Positions 46,139-57,247 of a DNA stretch of 64,000 nucleotides are shown here, one piece after another. The position numbers and the translations under genes were made by a program. Under the pieces are notes generated by a model that saw only the letters and a list, made by a program, of their open reading frames with translations, was not told the DNA's origin and searched no databases. Within the stretch, counting starts at the first letter, position 1. The number at the start of each line of letters is the position of its first letter. Source of the stretch: Parapedobacter defluvii (GTDB lineage: Bacteria > Bacteroidota > Bacteroidia > Sphingobacteriales > Sphingobacteriaceae); NCBI RefSeq assembly GCF_014642075.1, contig NZ_BMIK01000002.1, positions 1 to 64,000 on the forward strand. The letters run 5' to 3'.

Positions 46139-46352
46139 TTGATAGTTGACAATTGATAATTGACAGTTCCATTATCCATTATCCATTATCAATTATCAAT
46201 TATCCATTATCAATTGTCCATTATCAATTATCCACTATCCATTATCCATTATCCACTATCCATTATCAATTGTCCATTGTCAATTATCCACTATCCATTG
46301 TCAATTATCCACTATCCATTATCAATTGTCCATTGTCAATTATCCATTGCCC
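46139..46352. repeat. 7-bp tandem repeat array with strand switch (about 30 units)
   Basis: Four reverse units (TTGATAG, TTGACAA, TTGATAA, TTGACAG; 46139-46166), a TTCC spacer, then 26 forward units of consensus ATTATCM (variants ATTGTCM, ACTATCC) from 46171 to 46352, in unbroken 7-bp phase. Because 7 is not a multiple of 3, all frames stay open and give false proteins. The 3' end of the neighbouring minus-strand Fe-S gene, including its stop codon (46336-46338), lies inside the array. Confidence 0.9.
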
Positions 46353-47646
46353 AATTGGCCCGGTCGGCCTGTGCGTATTTCCAGGGTGCACCGTTATTCT
46401 CCACATTGCCAAACATCGCATTGAGGCTAGTAGGGGCCTTCGATTCTTCCATAACCGCATAGCGCCGCAGTTCGACAATGATTTCCAGCGGATTGATGTT
46501 TACGGGGCAGGCTTCCACGCAGGCGTTGCAGGTCGTACATGCCCATATTTCTTCGCGGGTAATGTAACTGTCCAGCAACGATTTGCCGTCATCTTTAAAT
46601 TCCTTGTTCTTCCGGATGGCTGAGCCCACCTCCACCATCCGGTCGCGGGTATCCATCATGATTTTACGTGGGGAAAGCAGCTTGCCGGTGATATTCGCCG
46701 GACATACCGATGTACACCGTCCGCATTCCGTGCAGGTATACGCTTCCATCAGGTTTTTCCAGGTAAGGTCCTGTATGTCTTTCGCCCCGAAACGGATCGG
46801 CATATCCGCCGCTTCCGGCGTGTAGGAAGGATCCAGCATCGCCTTGACTTCATTGGTGACGCTATCCATGTTTGTGAACCGTCCTTTGGGATGCAGGTTT
46901 GAAAAATAGGTGTTGGGAAAAGCCAGCAAAATATGCAGGTGCTTGGAATAAGGGAGGTAATTGAGAAATGCCAATACGCCGGTGATATGGAACCACCAGC
47001 AAAAACGCTCAATCCCCATGAGTGAAGAAGTGCTGTCGGGCAGTAAAGGAAGCAACCAGCCACTTACCGGAAATGCACCTGCCTGTGTATAGTGGGGGGC
47101 ACCCAATAATTGCAGTTTATAATCGGCTGCATTCATCGTGAGAAAAGCAACCATTAACAGGATTTCGGCGGTGAGGATGAGATTGGCGTCGGTACGGGGC
47201 CACGCCGTCATCTCCGTGCCAAAAAAACGTCTGATACGGGCTAGGTTACGCCGGGCAAGGAAGATGATACAGCCCACTAGGACACTCAATGCCAACCATT
47301 CAAACGCACCGATTAAAAAGGAATAGAAAGCTCCCAAACCCGAAAAAGCCCGGTGGGTGCCAAACAGGCCGTCGATAACGATTTCGAGCATCTCTAGGTT
47401 GATGATGCAAAACCCCAGGTAGACGAATAAATGGAGCAATGCAGCGAAGGGGCGTTTGAACATTTTTTTTTGTCCGAATGCCACCAAAAGCATCGTTCGC
47501 AGGCGCCTACCCGGCTCGTCGGTACGGCGTTCGCTTCGGCCCAGCCGGATGTTTTGGATGATCTTCCGGGCATTGTATGCAGCCAATGCCACCGCAGTTA
47601 TGAATACAACCGCGAAAATCAATTGGCTTATTACCGATGGCGTCAT
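46336..47646 (-). CDS. Membrane-bound 4Fe-4S oxidoreductase subunit (HdrC/heme-like fusion)
   Basis: A 436-residue membrane protein. The first about 220 residues hold five to six hydrophobic segments of a NarI-like (cytochrome b) unit (VFITAVALAAYNARKI, FVYLGFCIINLEMLEIV, FHITGVLAFLNYLPYSKHLH with His). From about residue 300 two 4Fe-4S clusters follow: CTECGRCTSVCPANITG and CTTCNACVEACPVNINPLE. The last residues (ANWAMDN) are encoded by the heptamer repeat array, which seems to have extended or replaced the 3' end. It forms a pair with the CCG-domain protein downstream. Electron carrier role is inferred from the family. Confidence 0.87.
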   Translation of the reverse strand: MTPSVISQLIFAVVFITAVALAAYNARKIIQNIRLGRSERRTDEPGRRLRTMLLVAFGQKKMFKRPFAALLHLFVYLGFCIINLEMLEIVIDGLFGTHRAFSGLGAFYSFLIGAFEWLALSVLVGCIIFLARRNLARIRRFFGTEMTAWPRTDANLILTAEILLMVAFLTMNAADYKLQLLGAPHYTQAGAFPVSGWLLPLLPDSTSSLMGIERFCWWFHITGVLAFLNYLPYSKHLHILLAFPNTYFSNLHPKGRFTNMDSVTNEVKAMLDPSYTPEAADMPIRFGAKDIQDLTWKNLMEAYTCTECGRCTSVCPANITGKLLSPRKIMMDTRDRMVEVGSAIRKNKEFKDDGKSLLDSYITREEIWACTTCNACVEACPVNINPLEIIVELRRYAVMEESKAPTSLNAMFGNVENNGAPWKYAQADRANWAMDN

Positions 47647-51605: not shown

Positions 51606-52478
51606 TTACGATGCAAACAATGCCGCCGCTCCGATGAGTGCGGCATCCTCGCCTAGCTGGCTGATGCGGATGTCGAACCGTGCAAACTCTTCGGGGTTGA
51701 AACCACGGAAAATATCCCATGCCCGCGAAATATTCCCCCCGATGATGAACTTATCTGTTTTTTCTTTTTCGCTGAAAAATGCAAGGAATTGAAGCAAGTG
51801 GTGGCTATATTCAGCCAGGATGTCCGCTACGAACGCATGTTGGTCGCGCAATTGGAGAAGCTCACGCAGCCCGGTGACTTTTATGCCATACTGTGCCGTG
51901 CGGCGTACAAACCAGCGCGTAACGAGGTGCTCTTCCATGTTGCTGTCGAGGTACGGGGTTTTCCATAAATCAGCATCCACTGCATTGCTTCCTTTTTCCC
52001 AGATCGCGCTACCAAGGCCTGTCCCGAGGGTAATACCCAGTATTTTTGCATGGCCGTTGTGTTTTCCAGCGAAAACCTCGCCCTGAAGGAATGCCGCCGC
52101 ATCATTGATGAACCGGATGTTTGCGCCATCTATGCCTATACGTTCGGCAAGTTCATGCCGGATATCCATGCCATAGAGGTTGTCATATTTGTCTTGGTTC
52201 CGCATGAGGGAAATGCCATTTTCATAGTCAAACGGCCCCGGCATGGCGATACCGATTACAGGTGAAGAAATATCCGGATGGTTTGCAACTACTTCATTGA
52301 AAGGTGCAGCCCATGCGGATAAAATCGTTTTAGCATCGGCATGCGAATTAACCGGGTATCGTGTTGCTGACTCATTGATTATCTGCCAATTGCCGACATC
52401 TACTAGTGCAGCAGTTATGTGGGTGCCGCCGATGTCGGAGGCAATGACAAGCTGTTTATTTTGTTCTTGTTTGGTCAT
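51606..52478 (-). CDS. ROK-family sugar kinase, lacking the usual zinc motif
   Basis: A 290-residue ROK-type kinase. The phosphate loops are [14 protein letters not shown] (about residues 15-28) and [27 protein letters not shown] holds a substrate contact and [12 protein letters not shown] the catalytic Asp. The usual ROK zinc centre CxCGxxGC is absent; the corresponding stretch reads [15 protein letters not shown]. Substrate is likely glucose or a related hexose, but this cannot be fixed. It begins 22 bp inside the 3' end of aroC, so it is attached to the aromatic operon's transcript. The link between the two functions is not obvious. Confidence 0.82.
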
Positions 52479-53565
52479 ATAGTTGGTTTTTTAGTAAATG
52501 ATCGGCAATAACCAATGCAGCCATAGCCTCTACGATAACAATAGCACGGGGTACTACGCAGGGGTCATGTCGGCCTTTTCCGGTGATTTCGGTGGTTTCG
52601 CCCGCTTCATTGATTGTTTGTTGAGCGCGCATGAGGGTAGCCACCGGTTTGAATGCCACACGGAATGTAATATCCATCCCGTTGGAAATCCCCCCCTGTA
52701 TGCCTCCCGAGAAATTGGTCAGTGTTTTCAGGTTTTTTGCGTCCCCTTCAGGATTGACAAATGCATCGTTGTGTTCAGATCCCTGCATTTCCGATCCTGC
52801 AAACCCCGATCCGTATTCAAATCCATGCACAGCATTGATGCTCATCATTGCCTTTGCCAGATCGGCATGCAATTTGTCAAATACGGGCTCACCCAAACCT
52901 ACCGGTACGTTTTGGATGACTACGCTGATGCGCCCACCTACCGTATCTCCGGCCTTACGGATGGCCTCGATAAATGTAATCATCTCGTTTGCGGTAGCCG
53001 GATCTGCACAGCGCACGATGTTGCTTTCGCGTAATGCGGTCAACTCGTCCACATCGTGTGTAGCCAGATTGGGGGCTTCAATTTTGCCAACACCGGATAC
53101 ATGGGCAAAAATGCGGATACCAAATGGCGAGAGAAAACTTTTGGCCACGGCCCCCGCAGCTACACGGGCGGCGGTTTCACGCGCAGATGAGCGGCCGCCA
53201 CCCCGGTAATCGCGGATGCCATACTTGATTTGGTAGGTATAGTCCGCATGCGAAGGCCGGTATTTATCGGCAATGTGGGAGTAGTCCTTGGAGCGTTGAT
53301 CTTCATTTGGGATGACCATCGCTAACGGTGTACCCGTGGATTTGCCCTCAAATACACCCGAAAGGATTTTGGCAGTATCACTTTCTTTCCGCTGTGTGGT
53401 AATCTTGGACTGGCCGGGACGGCGTTTGTCCAGCTCGGATTGGATGAACGTTTCGTCGATCGTAATATTGGGCGGGCAACCGTCAATGATCACACCGATT
53501 GCCTCACCGTGCGATTCGCCGAATGTCGTGATACGGAATACATCCCCAAATGAATTACCAGCCAT
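52456..53565 (-). CDS. aroC: Chorismate synthase
   Basis: A 369-residue chorismate synthase, which makes chorismate from EPSP using reduced flavin without net redox change. The N-terminal [25 protein letters not shown], and the signature [19 protein letters not shown] are present, along with GVGKIEAPN and [16 protein letters not shown]. It is complete. It lies 50 bp after aroA on the same strand, with a short 7-bp repeat in the gap. The ROK kinase gene overlaps its 3' end. Confidence 0.96.
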
Positions 53566-53615: not shown

Positions 53616-54875
53616 CTAAGTTATAACAAATCCGTGTTGTTTCAAATGTTTCCAGAAATCCGGATACGATTTTTCTACCACATGGGGCTCGTTGATCTGT
53701 ATACCGTCGAATGCCAAAGCAAGGGGCGCAAAGGCCATTGCCATACGATGGTCCTCGTACGTGTCAAAACTGAGGCGTTTGGGCTGCTGCAATTCTCCCG
53801 TTTTCAGATGATACACATCGCCCTCTTCGAGGAGCTTTACACCAAATTTACCGAGTTCATTCTGCAACGCTGCAATGCGGTCGGTTTCTTTGATTTTGAG
53901 CGTGTGCAATCCTGTAAAAGAGAGATCCCGGCGCAATGCGGCGGCACAGACAATGACGGTCTGGGCAAGATCCGGACATTCCTTGAAATCAAGCACATTG
54001 ATTTCGGTGGATGGAGAATCGGTTACTTTCCGGATAAGCAGGCCGCCATCGGTAAAAGAGGAGGCAACGCCAAAATGCGCCATGATATCCGCAATAGCCG
54101 CATCACCCTGCAGGCTCTGGCTTTTCAGGTTCGGCAAAAATAACTGAGCGTCCCTGCTCAAAGCTACCATGGCATACCAATAAGAGGCGGCACTCCAGTC
54201 AGGTTCAATGGTCAGCCGGCAATGTTGTGCCTTTTGTGGCGCGATGTAGATGGTATCATCCTGCCAACTGTGCTGAATCCCCGCATCGTGCAGCATATCG
54301 AGCGTCATGGTCAGATAAGGACGGGAGGTTAGTTCGCCGTCAATTTGCAGACGCAGTCCTTTCGGCAGGGTGGGGGCGATAAGGAGCAATGCCGACAGGT
54401 ATTGGCTGCTTACATTGCCTTTCACGGTAACCTTGTCCGTGGTCTGGGTAAACCCACCATTGATTGCTAACGGTGGATACCCGGCTTGTCCCTCAAACGC
54501 TATGTCGGCGCCCAATGCACGCAATGCATCTACCAGAATGCCGATCGGGCGTTGTTTCATCCGCTCACTTCCCGTAAGCAGGTAGCGGCCGGTGGCCGTG
54601 GTGAGGTAAGCGGTAAGGAAGCGCATGGCTGTTCCTGCCGGGCCTATATCGATGACCGTGGTTTCTTTTCCGCCGCGCACCGCTGCCACCGAGTTCAGCG
54701 CCTGTTTCAGCGTTTCGGTATCGGCTGCAGACGATAGGTTGGACACCTCCACCCGGTCGCCACCCCAGGCTTGGATAATCAGTGCCCGGTTACTTTCACT
54801 TTTGGACCCCGTTAGCTCAACGGTTCCCTGGAGGGATTTCGTTGGATGGGAAAGCCTGATCGCGTCACTTTCCAT
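53616..54875 (-). CDS. aroA: 3-phosphoshikimate 1-carboxyvinyltransferase (EPSP synthase)
   Basis: A 419-residue EPSP synthase, the sixth shikimate-pathway enzyme, joining shikimate-3-P and PEP. Landmarks are GSKSESNRALII near the N-terminus (Lys, Ser, Arg of the substrate site), GPAGTAMRFLTAYL, and SFDTYEDHRMAMAFAPLAL (the Asp-His-Arg PEP site). It is complete. Its ATG overlaps the stop of the DAHPS/CM gene (TGATG, 1 bp), showing tight coupling. The first conserved block reads GSKSESNRAL, as in bacterial class proteins. Confidence 0.95.
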   Translation of the reverse strand: MESDAIRLSHPTKSLQGTVELTGSKSESNRALIIQAWGGDRVEVSNLSSAADTETLKQALNSVAAVRGGKETTVIDIGPAGTAMRFLTAYLTTATGRYLLTGSERMKQRPIGILVDALRALGADIAFEGQAGYPPLAINGGFTQTTDKVTVKGNVSSQYLSALLLIAPTLPKGLRLQIDGELTSRPYLTMTLDMLHDAGIQHSWQDDTIYIAPQKAQHCRLTIEPDWSAASYWYAMVALSRDAQLFLPNLKSQSLQGDAAIADIMAHFGVASSFTDGGLLIRKVTDSPSTEINVLDFKECPDLAQTVIVCAAALRRDLSFTGLHTLKIKETDRIAALQNELGKFGVKLLEEGDVYHLKTGELQQPKRLSFDTYEDHRMAMAFAPLALAFDGIQINEPHVVEKSYPDFWKHLKQHGFVIT

Positions 54876-55981
54876 CAGGCCTCCGCTACCGGTGTGGTAT
54901 TCATGATCTCGTTCTGCTTGCGGATAGACTCATTGTGGATAAGTTCCAGCAGCTTCACGATGAAGTCTTTATCCAGCTTAAGCGCTTGTGCCACGTTGCT
55001 GCGTTTATGAATGATTTCGTCCCATCGGTTTACCTGTAGGATGGTTACGTTGTTATCGCGTTTATAGACACCGATTTTTTCAACGATTTTCATCCGGTCG
55101 CTGAGGATCTTGATGATCTGGTCGTCCAGTTTGTCGATGTCTTTGCGCAATTCGGCCAATTTATCCTCGAATACCGGATCGTCCGATTTCGCATGTCGGA
55201 ATGTAAGGTTCGTGAGGATGTCAGCCAGGGCCTGCGGAGTTACCTGTTGCTTGGCATCGGTCCATGCTACCGATGGATCGATATGCGATTCCACGATGAG
55301 CCCCTGCATGTCCATATCGAATGCCTTCTGCGCGATGTACGGAATAAGCTCGCGGTTGCCGCAGATGTGGCTGGGATCATTGATAACCGGCAGATCGGGT
55401 ACCAATGTTTTCAGTTGGATAGCAATGTCCCACATGGGCTCGTTGCGGAATGCCGTTTTTTCGTACGACGAGAATCCCCGGTGGATGGCAGCCAGTTTTT
55501 TGATTCCTGCACGGTTTACGCGCTCCAGGGCGCCCAACCACAGGGAGAGATCGGGGTTTACCGGATTCTTGATCAGCACGGGTACATCAACACCTTTCAA
55601 GGCGTCGGCAATTTCCTGCACGGTGAATGGGTTGGCAGTTGAGCGGGCACCGATCCAAAGGATATCAACCCCGGCGGCCAGTGCTTCTTCTACGTGCTTG
55701 GCGGTTGCTACCTCTGTAGCGATGGGCAATCCGGTTTCTTCTTTGGCCCGGCGGAACCATTGGAGACCGATGCTGCCGATACCTTCAAATTCGCCCGGAC
55801 GGGTGCGGGGTTTCCAGATGCCTGCGCGCAGTGCGTTTACTTTGCCGGTGTTGGCAAGCAAATGAGCCGTAGCGACCAATTGTTCCTCCGTTTCGGCGCT
55901 GCACGGACCGGCAATGATCAGCGGTGCATCGCCGGTGTCGAACCATGATTTTAAGGGTACAATGTCTAATGTCTGTTTCAT
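54875..55981 (-). CDS. Bifunctional DAHP synthase / chorismate mutase
   Basis: A 368-residue fusion. Residues 1 to about 265 are a type I-beta DAHP synthase: LIIAGPCSAETEEQL, RAGIWKPRTRPGEFEG, LWIGARSTANPFTVQEI, PVLIKNPVNPDLSLW, HRGFSSYEKTAFRN and DPSHICGNRELI. This makes DAHP from PEP and erythrose-4-P. The C-terminal about 90 residues form an AroQ-type chorismate mutase (LRKDIDKLDDQIIKILSDRM, the N-terminal helix with Arg and Asp). The fused mutase provides feedback control by prephenate in relatives. It is cotranscribed with aroA and, probably, pheA upstream. Confidence 0.94.
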   Translation of the reverse strand: MKQTLDIVPLKSWFDTGDAPLIIAGPCSAETEEQLVATAHLLANTGKVNALRAGIWKPRTRPGEFEGIGSIGLQWFRRAKEETGLPIATEVATAKHVEEALAAGVDILWIGARSTANPFTVQEIADALKGVDVPVLIKNPVNPDLSLWLGALERVNRAGIKKLAAIHRGFSSYEKTAFRNEPMWDIAIQLKTLVPDLPVINDPSHICGNRELIPYIAQKAFDMDMQGLIVESHIDPSVAWTDAKQQVTPQALADILTNLTFRHAKSDDPVFEDKLAELRKDIDKLDDQIIKILSDRMKIVEKIGVYKRDNNVTILQVNRWDEIIHKRSNVAQALKLDKDFIVKLLELIHNESIRKQNEIMNTTPVAEA

Positions 55982-55985
55982 TTTT

Positions 55986-56020
55986 TTGTGTATTGTGTAG
56001 TAAGTATTGTGTATTGCGAT
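55986..56020. repeat. Short 7-bp tandem repeat upstream of DAHPS/CM
   Basis: Five 7-bp units: TTGTGTA, TTGTGTA, GTAAGTA, TTGTGTA, TTGCGAT (55986-56020). It lies 5 bp before the DAHPS/CM start on the minus strand, so it is in the leader between pheA and that gene. Confidence 0.6.
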
Positions 56021-56060
56021 TTTGTTTATTTACTTTTTGTTTTTTCGTGTTTCTGTTTCA

Positions 56061-56102
56061 CCGACCACCCATCCCTGATCACCGACCACTGACCCCCCAT
56101 CA
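56061..56102. repeat. 7-bp tandem repeat abutting the pheA stop codon
   Basis: Six in-phase 7-bp units: CCGACCA, CCCATCC, CTGATCA, CCGACCA, CTGACCC, CCCATCA (56061-56102). The last three bases are the complement of the pheA stop codon (56100-56102). The units belong to the same family as the array beside xylA (CCCATCA, CCGATCA). Confidence 0.75.
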
Positions 56103-56924
56103 CACCTTGTCATTCTTTACGTATTCGCCCATGATGTTGAAATTGCTGGTATGTTTAAGTACGCGGCGGATGGCTGTATCGTAGTCCGCTTGGTTCTCCC
56201 ATTCTACATCTACGTAGAAGTCATATTCGTTGCGCTTGCCCAATACCGGCATAGATTGTATTTTGCTGAGGTTGATGCGCTGTTCAGCGAAACATTGCAA
56301 CACCGTGGATAATGACCCCACACCGTTGCCCGTTTGGAAAGATATTGAAGCCTTGTTCACTTTTGTTTTTTCTTCGGGCTTGTCGGTCAGAATGAGGAAA
56401 CGGGTGTAGTTTTTCTTGTTGGTTTCGATGCGGCGCTCGATGATTTCCAGTCCGTATAATTTTGCAGCAAGCTGCGGTGCGATGGCCGCTGTATCCCTCA
56501 GTTGGAGCTCGTTTACCCGTTGTGCGCTGGCAGCGGTGTCTTCGGCCTCGGTTACCTTAAGATGCGGATTTTCTTCGAGGTAGTCACTGCATTGCTGCAA
56601 CGCGATGGGATGAGATTGCACATGCTTGATATCAGCCAGGGCAACTCCCGGCAGTGCCATCAGATGCAGTTTGATGTGCAGGTATACTTCACCGACAATC
56701 GGAAAACGGTAATCGCGGAGTAAGTTATAGTTGGGAAGCAGGCTCCCCGCGATGGAATTTTCGATGGCCATCACAACATAGTCGACCTTTCCCTGCTTCA
56801 GCAGTTCGCATGTTTTTTTGAATGATTCACATTCCACCGTTTCGATTTCATCGCCGAAATATTTGTAGGCGGCTTCTTCGTGGAACGAACCTTTAACGCC
56901 CTGTATGGCTACTTTTATACTCAT
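56100..56924 (-). CDS. pheA: Prephenate dehydratase
   Basis: A 274-residue prephenate dehydratase, which converts prephenate to phenylpyruvate on the way to phenylalanine. The catalytic core spans KVAIQGVKGSFHEEAAYKYF, ENSIAGSLLPNYNLL, and the motif NYTRFLIL (TRF, about residue 175). A C-terminal ACT regulatory domain follows (SFQTGNGVGSLSTVLQCF, SKIQSMPVLG), which binds phenylalanine in relatives. Length is standard. It is the first structural gene of the aromatic operon. A Phe-rich leader peptide and terminator lie just upstream (56938-57122), indicating attenuation control. Confidence 0.94.
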   Translation of the reverse strand: MSIKVAIQGVKGSFHEEAAYKYFGDEIETVECESFKKTCELLKQGKVDYVVMAIENSIAGSLLPNYNLLRDYRFPIVGEVYLHIKLHLMALPGVALADIKHVQSHPIALQQCSDYLEENPHLKVTEAEDTAASAQRVNELQLRDTAAIAPQLAAKLYGLEIIERRIETNKKNYTRFLILTDKPEEKTKVNKASISFQTGNGVGSLSTVLQCFAEQRINLSKIQSMPVLGKRNEYDFYVDVEWENQADYDTAIRRVLKHTSNFNIMGEYVKNDKV

Positions 56925-56937
56925 ATTTCATTAAAGG

Positions 56938-56972
56938 ACAAAAAAAAGTCCCGGCTTTCTTGCCGGGACTTT
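56938..56972 (-). terminator. Intrinsic terminator of the pheA attenuator
   Basis: On the minus strand AAAGTCCCGGC (56962-56972) pairs with GCCGGGACTTT (56945-56955), followed by a T-run. It lies between the leader peptide and pheA, 20 bp before the pheA start. An upstream segment GCCGGGA (57009-57015 on the minus strand) can pair with the 5' arm instead, making an antiterminator. Confidence 0.85.
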
Positions 56973-57004
56973 CTACATTTATATCTTCTCGTTATCAATG
57001 CATA

Positions 57005-57076
57005 TTAATCCCGGCTCTTACTGCTAAAGTAAAAGAAACCAAAAAACCAGTATGCATTGTTACGTGTTAACATCAT
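57005..57076 (-). CDS. pheA leader peptide, Phe/Tyr/Trp-rich (attenuation)
   Basis: A 23-codon open frame on the minus strand starting at 57076 (a second ATG follows at 57073). The peptide carries the run AYWFFGFFYF, with five Phe, two Tyr and one Trp within ten residues, and ends SSKSRD. A density of Phe codons like this is the hallmark of a phe attenuator leader. Its stop codon (57005-57007) immediately precedes GCCGGGA (57009-57015), so a ribosome at the stop would mask the antiterminator segment and let the terminator form. A ribosome stalled at Phe codons would leave that segment free. A promoter lies 17-46 bp upstream. Confidence 0.82.
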   Translation of the reverse strand: MMLTRNNAYWFFGFFYFSSKSRD

Positions 57077-57092
57077 TTAATTTTTGATGCGC

Positions 57093-57122
57093 CAAATGTA
57101 CGCAAGAATTTTTTATTGTCAA
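57093..57122 (-). promoter_or_regulatory. pheA operon promoter (Bacteroidota type)
   Basis: On the minus strand a TTGACA element (57117-57122) is followed after 16 bp by the -7 box TACATTTG (57093-57100), 19 bp from its TTG. This matches the Bacteroidota consensus TTG-N19-TAnnTTTG. The leader peptide starts 16 bp downstream. Confidence 0.75.
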
Positions 57123-57166
57123 TAAAAAAAATAAAAAAATGTAGCTGACATCTTTCGACCCTTAAA

Positions 57167-57191
57167 AGGCAGCCCCCAGGGCGGGGGCTGC
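57167..57191 (-). terminator. GC-rich terminator hairpin downstream of the LuxR-type gene
   Basis: GGCAGCCCCC (57167-57176) and GGGGGCTGCC (57182-57191) make a perfect 10-bp GC-rich stem; on the minus strand it is followed by TTTTAAG. It separates the luxR-type gene and small ORF from the pheA promoter. Confidence 0.72.
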
Positions 57192-57247
57192 CGCCAACAT
57201 AAACCGTCGGCCTAACACACGTTTTTTATAGCGATATAGTAGATGTA

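Follow-up and report, generated by a model that had tools for sequence, protein, structure and literature searches.

The window, as we call the whole stretch of 64,000 nucleotides analysed here, carries on its minus strand an operon for aromatic synthesis with pheA, a DAHP synthase-chorismate mutase fusion, aroA and aroC, preceded by a promoter, a short leader peptide gene and an intrinsic terminator (Table 1). The fusion gene is separated from pheA by 118 nt (55982-56099), aroA overlaps it by one base and aroC follows 50 nt further on; transcription presumably reads through across the 118-nt gap. No tyrA was found in this operon. By PF00793, one DAHP synthase could be identified in the organism's own genome, a second PF00793 match being a KDO8P synthase according to NCBIfam. 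The gene upstream of the leader region, P0007 (57449-58282), is of LuxR type and shares its strand with pheA. Between this gene and the promoter lies a hairpin of 10 perfect pairs (GGCAGCCCCCGCCCTGGGGGCTGCC; 57192-57168) with TTTT behind it (57192-57164 in all, minus strand). It is possibly the terminator of the LuxR-type gene; our terminator scan, which demands five T, missed it. Elsewhere in the window, a plus-strand ORF (46153-46623) starts with tandem-like short repeats (IIHYPLSIINYPL...) and partly overlaps the minus-strand gene at 46336-47646.

The first-pass annotation of this DNA had described a promoter, a 23-codon leader, the motif GCCGGGA at the leader stop and a terminator before pheA, and every one of these elements was located in the sequence. 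A scan of 3.5 kb gave 10 promoter-like sites, and of these the promoter, which we take to be of the Bacteroidota -33/-7 type, was the only one that scored 10 of 12. The leader contains five Phe codons, two Tyr codons and one Trp codon within 57052-57026 and ends with TAA (57007-57005), and segment 2 overlaps its final three codons. Further downstream, the 5' arm of the terminator (segment 3) has TCCCGGC and the 3' arm (segment 4) has GCCGGGA; the stem consists of 13 pairs, 7 of them G-C, is followed by a T run and lies 18 nt upstream of pheA. The region 57090-56934 folded to -48 kcal/mol, compared with -28.7 (s.d. 3.95) in 200 shuffles.

Table 1. Features of the pheA leader region and the operon in the window
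Feature	Positions	Strand	Basis
Promoter: TTGACA (57122-57117), 16-nt spacer, TACATTTG (57100-57093)	57093..57122	-	sequence read directly; promoter scan
Predicted leader peptide gene, MMLTRNNAYWFFGFFYFSSKSRD and stop, 23 residues	57005..57076	-	ORF read; conceptual translation
Putative protector hairpin (1:2), with AATGCATA (57058-57051) and TATGCATT (57004-56997) as its outer arms	56997..57058	-	folding; leader:downstream duplex
Segment 2 (half of the antiterminator), GCCGGGA, adjoining the stop codon of the leader	57009..57015	-	duplex with segment 3
Intrinsic terminator, then U run	56943..56974	-	terminator scan; covariation
pheA, prephenate dehydratase (PDT), ATG at 56924	56100..56924	-	Pfam PDT, E 1.5e-59
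DAHP synthase/chorismate mutase fusion	54875..55981	-	Pfam
aroA, EPSP synthase	53616..54875	-	gene call
aroC, chorismate synthase	52456..53565	-	gene call

Conservation in the family and occurrence in the class

The family was represented by loci L001-L094 and L158-L237, the latter assigned to it by pheA identity and title only, and loci with identical last 200 bases were merged into distinct ones. Seven relatives from the same genus (Parapedobacter) had a pheA 81-91% identical to that of the window. By using a strict scan (an ATG leader with at least six aromatic residues in 10; dinucleotide shuffles as controls), an aromatic leader was identified in 129 of the 132 distinct family regions upstream of pheA (shuffled mean 1.9) and a terminator in 131 of them (shuffled mean 0.6). 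The leader count increased to 131 once other starts and longer frames were allowed, with L009 (a long in-frame extension) and L051 (a GTG start, as at L117) recovered by reading; the terminators of L115, L118, L122, L123 and L130, which are G-C-poor or have an interrupted stem, were recovered in the same way, and one 10-base placeholder stretch (L135) was excluded. The exception, L069, has a divergent pheA (45% identical) in genome G122, where an aromatic leader precedes the DAHP synthase. The motif TAnnTTTG preceded the leader by no more than 60 nt at 122 of the 131 distinct family leaders and at 16 of 39 leaders outside the family. Loss of the leader in relatives had been named beforehand as one observation that would speak against the attenuator; here the leader was kept in all but one of the distinct family regions and, compared with the shuffles, such conservation means that neither the leader nor the terminator is there by chance. 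One contig of this set, L170, is labelled Legionellaceae (a MAG) and has a pheA 72% identical to that of the window; it is probably a mislabelled or mixed MAG.

Of 151 family genomes, 150 gave a match at E≤0.01 to a covariance model built from 71 family leaders (R1), and in 133 the match was strong (E≤2.6e-9). It should be noted that R1 was built partly from the same sequences, and this result is therefore partly circular and shows distribution rather than independence. Among the other 18 genomes, 16 were exactly those without a pheA match (weak R1 matches or none), and the remaining two, G014 and G038, had a weak match just 5' of pheA. Sixteen displaced or weaker R1 matches were read and comprised three aromatic leaders before a DAHP synthase, nine Thr/Ile leaders and four sites without a recognisable aromatic leader. 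The Thr/Ile leaders (L271-L279, nine genomes; for example, MNFNTSIITTIIITTGINQRG), most of which have a terminator-like hairpin and whose anatomy is similar to that of the pheA leader, precede an 815-817 aa protein that, as identified by eye, resembles aspartokinase-homoserine dehydrogenase. At E≤0.001, R1 matched 9 of 60 class genomes; the model is family-specific, and class-wide statements therefore rest on pheA loci.

At the level of the phylum, 62 loci were hand-picked among the better-scoring of 214 matched genomes (247 searched), some being skipped; 10 skipped genomes of the class, which we take to be Bacteroidia, and four with divergent pheA were added later, and few of the lower-scoring genomes from outside the class were included. 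A leader was found in 39 of 40 non-family loci, hand-picked among the better pheA matches, each with a terminator in a relaxed scan; the strict scan gave 38 leaders and 34 terminators at the same loci. Thirty-six of them belonged to the class (35 with a leader) and four lay outside it (L099, L100, L111 and L116, all with a leader); the remaining 22 outside-class loci examined had neither leader nor terminator. With the relaxed scan, a terminator accompanied the leader at 212 of 212 leader-bearing loci. On reading, L119 showed no leader, and at L111 no start codon could be identified. The pheA of the four outside-class loci was 42-47% identical to that of the window, so that the operon may have been transferred together with its attenuator, or the draft genomes may be contaminated. 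The pheA match at L111 is part of a 675-aa frame with a further match to DAHP synthase-chorismate mutase.

Two aromatic leaders in series stand before pheA at L105 (-316..-256 and -161..-80, relative to the pheA start), L129 (-294..-231 and -222..-69) and L133 (-306..-252 and -179..-80). A terminator follows each leader at L105 and L129, and at L133 the second terminator alone was found.

Among the 14 added class genomes, eight had a leader (7 aromatics in 10 each), with only L291 passing the strict terminator scan as well, and in six (L292-L297) the scan found no leader. A second sample of 109 genomes was spread evenly over the class; it overlaps the first, and G179 and G191 belong both to it and to the 14 added genomes. 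A pheA match was present in 30 of the 109 genomes and absent from 79. The leader occurred at 23 of the 30 pheA loci, or at 19 of 26 after removal of four family members; in two of the 23 (L308 and L310) the aromatics number just five in 10, and the strict scan missed the terminators at some of these loci. The seven pheA loci with no leader were L294, L299-L303 and L312 (the same locus as L119), its absence at L294, L301 and L302 being judged by the scan alone.

Predicted alternative pairings of the leader RNA

The duplex of segments 2 and 3 had a mean energy of -17.0 kcal/mol across 170 distinct loci, compared with -7.1 (s.d. 2.7) when segment 2 was shuffled. In the 39 non-family leaders, segment 2 begins 0-15 nt past the last aromatic codon and binds its own terminator arm (-15.8) better than the arms of other loci (-9.5, s.d. 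3.9); thus, segments 2 and 3 change together. Examples of segment 2/3 pairs that differ between lineages are AGGATTGT/ACAATCCT, GAGCGGGA/TCCCGCTC and CGAGGCTTT/AAAGCCTCG.

Covariation was measured in an alignment (A1) of 71 of the 131 distinct family leaders, from which sequences longer than 175 nt or more than 0.88 alike were left out. The terminator had 96.0% of its cells paired (88.1% in shuffled alignments), both partners had changed in 10 of its 11 pairs, and RNAalifold found the terminator alone in the 71 sequences. The antiterminator reached 86.5% (83.9% shuffled), barely above the shuffles because its letters hardly vary within the family. The search for covarying stems that the first-pass annotation had suggested was thus borne out for the terminator, whereas the antiterminator offered little beyond conserved letters inside the family. 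The exact outer 1:2 helix of the window was paired in 69.4% of the cells of the family alignment, and its pair counts were mixed: compensation was clear at one pair (A-U in 28, G-C in 16), double-change pairs were fewer than in shuffles, and sliding the helix by two columns gave a higher covariation score (0.195 versus 0.171). The leader:downstream duplex was stronger than shuffled controls (-18.4 versus -11.6, n=131; -19.0 versus -13.0, n=38) and also exceeded cross controls. The 1:2 hairpin is a putative protector that could hide segment 2.

The effect of a translating ribosome was modelled with a footprint assumed to extend from -16 to +13 relative to the A site. On the nascent window RNA, 8-9 pairs of the 2:3 duplex formed for stalls on the eight aromatic codons tested (9-12 and 14-17), whereas a ribosome at the stop codon allowed none. 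The energies of the window's three hairpins are balanced (-20.6, -20.7 and -21.8). Over all 170 loci, 2:3 formed under stalling and was absent at the stop in 156 (126/131 in the family and 30/39 outside it), and in 13 of the 170 the model still formed 2:3 with the ribosome at the stop. On the full-length window RNA the terminator beat 2:3 in every masked fold, and 2:3 also formed on the nascent RNA when no ribosome was present; therefore, the switch must be kinetic.

According to the mechanism we propose, RNA polymerase would start at about 57086 and a ribosome would begin the 23-codon leader. When Phe or Tyr is short, the ribosome would stall on a Phe or Tyr codon and leave segment 2 free to pair with the 5' arm of the terminator (2:3), so that the terminator would come too late and pheA, the DAHP synthase-chorismate mutase gene, aroA and aroC would be transcribed. 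When both are in ample supply, a ribosome that has reached the stop would cover segment 2, the 3:4 terminator would form and transcription would end before pheA; without a ribosome, the 1:2 hairpin could mask segment 2 and favour termination. A ribosome-mediated transcription attenuator is very probable here, because leader and terminator are conserved and segment 2 both pairs with and tracks its own terminator arm. The ribosome-controlled attenuation with alternative 2:3 and 3:4 pairings that was originally suggested is strongly supported by this comparative evidence.

Amino acids proposed to be sensed

At least two Phe and at least two Tyr codons were present in 169 of the 170 distinct leaders, and none of the 170 was without Phe or Tyr. 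Family leaders contained a mean of 3.8 Phe and 3.9 Tyr, corresponding to residue fractions of 0.185 for Phe and 0.189 for Tyr, and leaders outside the family a mean of 5.4 Phe and 3.7 Tyr. The two residues exchange at some positions, such as offset -6 (43% Phe, 45% Tyr). At offset -1, Tyr was kept in 88% of the 131 family leaders while its codon was split between TAT (62) and TAC (53), a pattern that selection acting on the amino acid would produce. In the ribosome-mask model, at least one Phe stall and at least one Tyr stall left 2:3 possible in 169 of 170 leaders, and five or more 2:3 pairs remained when the ribosome was stalled at 623 of the 641 Tyr codons and at 671 of the 690 Phe codons.

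The gene order downstream was also compared. At the three family loci read (the window, L172 and L218), the order was pheA, DAHP synthase, aroA and aroC, without tyrA. Outside the family, about 3.8 kb of downstream sequence was available at 17 loci, 13 of which had pheA, a frame of about 385 aa, a frame of about 280 aa and DAHP synthase, and at L120 the middle frames were an aminotransferase and a prephenate dehydrogenase (tyrA) by Pfam. At L122 and L130, DAHP synthase was present and the frame of about 280 aa was missing; at L119 and L121, DAHP synthase was not found within the sequence reached, and at L098, for which the sequence is shorter, it adjoins pheA. In three related genomes (G122, G127 and G137), the leader (for example, MTLNNTYYYGYFFYGNRNGA) stands directly 5' of DAHP synthase-aroA with no pheA there, and Tyr makes up 5-6 of its 7-9 aromatics.

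The name 'phenylalanine' attenuator given in the first-pass annotation therefore turned out to be too narrow, both because of the Phe and Tyr content of 169 of 170 leaders, Tyr being as frequent as Phe in the family, and because the leader precedes DAHP synthase without pheA in three genomes. We consider it likely that the element is a classical ribosome-mediated attenuator of the pheA operon, tuned jointly to charged tRNA-Phe and tRNA-Tyr. Given an attenuator, joint Phe/Tyr control is less certain than attenuation itself, and a Tyr response is suggested by the leaders: leader content, codon pattern, mask folding, controls and gene order fit joint control and do not prove it. A more specific version, to which we lean slightly, is an OR gate in which shortage of Phe or of Tyr, each alone, would lift termination of the operon that supplies both, and which would be spread through much of Bacteroidia. 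Such a gate would occur twice in series at three of the examined loci and would take over the task that falls to a Tyr-responsive repressor in Escherichia coli. As Phe and Tyr codons are mixed in nearly every species examined, the system offers a test of whether one attenuator senses two amino acids independently.

A Phe-only attenuator as in enterobacteria, with the Tyr (and Trp) codons as passengers, appears unlikely but deserves consideration. While it would agree with pheA being first in an operon without tyrA, with the five Phe versus two Tyr codons of the window leader and with the Phe-Tyr-Phe leader aroR of Corynebacterium glutamicum, reported as unaffected by Tyr supply (as described in PMC11802643), it would have to accommodate a Tyr content that equals that of Phe in the family and never falls to zero in 170 leaders, the predominance of Tyr where pheA is absent, the tyrA gene in the L120 operon and, in the model, Tyr-codon stalls that leave 2:3 free. 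The inclusion of Trp in a three-way aromatic sensor is a good deal less probable. The operon holds the single PF00793-type DAHP synthase of its genome, an enzyme that Trp synthesis needs too, and the window leader has a Trp codon, as do 66 of the 170 leaders, but it is missing in 104 and is not conserved even within the genus, where Arg replaces it in two of nine Parapedobacter leaders (L005 and L009); moreover, eight of the nine genus genomes have a separate Trp-rich trpE leader (WW or WWW), with a terminator found in six of nine (L238-L246) and no Trp-rich trpE leader found at L240. At the tyrA genes of the same nine genomes, a terminator or aromatic leader was found in none (0/9).

Comparison with known systems

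A metabolite-binding riboswitch or a protein-dependent attenuator with an incidental short ORF would suit a strongly folding structured 5' UTR, but it is highly improbable, given that Rfam gave nothing at the gathering score either at this site or in 20 pheA loci, that RNAalifold identified no structure besides the terminator in the 71 sequences, and that conservation lies in the content of aromatic codons, whose third positions vary. Just as implausible is an ordinary terminator of the LuxR-type gene next to an unrelated short ORF without any regulation, since, although P0007 lies upstream on the same strand, pheA is preceded by the element across the family as well as in much of the class, a separate 10-pair hairpin with TTTT stands between P0007 and the promoter, and segments 2 and 3 track each other.

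The best Rfam family by bits at this site was Phe_leader (RF01859; 25.8 bits, E 0.024), which lies below the gathering score of 55 bits and is therefore no accepted match. Bacteroid-trp (RF01692), presumably a Trp leader, was not among the 24 Rfam matches up to E 10 in 56900-57200 and was not matched in the 20 pheA loci. No Rfam family, RF01692 included, was matched at the gathering score in six trpE and three thrA-like loci, nor up to E 0.01 in three trpE loci.

Attenuation in many bacteria was reportedly covered by Lopatovskaya et al. in 2010. The enterobacterial pheL system has a short leader with a Phe run and alternative antiterminator and terminator hairpins and is Phe-only, and RF01859 is defined by Phe as the only repeated aromatic codon. 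The present leaders depart from that definition, as Tyr codons occurred in 170 of 170. The element resembles pheL and RF01859 in its target gene pheA, its short leader with a Phe run and its alternative hairpins, and differs in that the family leaders hold as much Tyr as Phe and that a monofunctional dehydratase pheA stands in an operon with DAHP synthase-chorismate mutase. For pheL, control by Phe-tRNA is described in PMC11802643. The same source describes aroR-aroF of C. glutamicum (Neshat et al. 2014), which shares with the present element a leader with Phe-Tyr-Phe before an operon holding DAHP synthase, and differs from it in belonging to another phylum and in responding, as reported there, to Phe and not to Tyr; this precedent, as far as it is described in that source, leaves two-amino-acid sensing doubtful.

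Closer to the present group, a structured 5' element before pheA was described in Flavobacterium psychrophilum and other Flavobacteriaceae genera, without Rfam hits, together with hints of attenuation by leader peptides ahead of amino acid operons (PMC9723704). The genomes of our group f4, which seem to be Flavobacteriaceae, carry leaders such as MSYNRFYFSNSFYFFFSRSKDCAMVI (L123) before pheA, as does F. psychrophilum its element, and the two are probably the same element. In the parts of PMC9723704 available to us, no Phe/Tyr reading is given and no Sphingobacteriaceae are described. Bacteroid-trp appears in a table entry of PMC2864571 as a Bacteroidetes candidate cis-regulatory RNA named for trp. 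A mapping study of Bacteroides thetaiotaomicron mentions leader-like short ORFs, and in the portion of its text at hand neither 'phenylalanine' nor 'aromatic' occurs (PMC7366714). Within a literature search that extended neither to Lopatovskaya et al. 2010 nor to the supplementary tables of PMC9723704, no report was found for Sphingobacteriaceae or of a Phe/Tyr attenuator in Bacteroidota. The earlier remark that no described case was known for pheA in Sphingobacteriaceae holds within that search, but a structured pheA element of Flavobacteriaceae is already in print (PMC9723704).

The element probably controls aromatic synthesis, including the sole PF00793-type DAHP synthase found in this genome, in a large group for which we found little such control described, and it could provide a currently missing Rfam family. 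By its anatomy it is a widespread classical attenuator with what, judging from the leader sequences, appears to be an unusual double specificity. The enterobacterial thr and ilv leaders likewise read, in one leader, several amino acids that share a pathway; the present leaders resemble them in holding codons for several pathway amino acids and differ in that these are aromatic.
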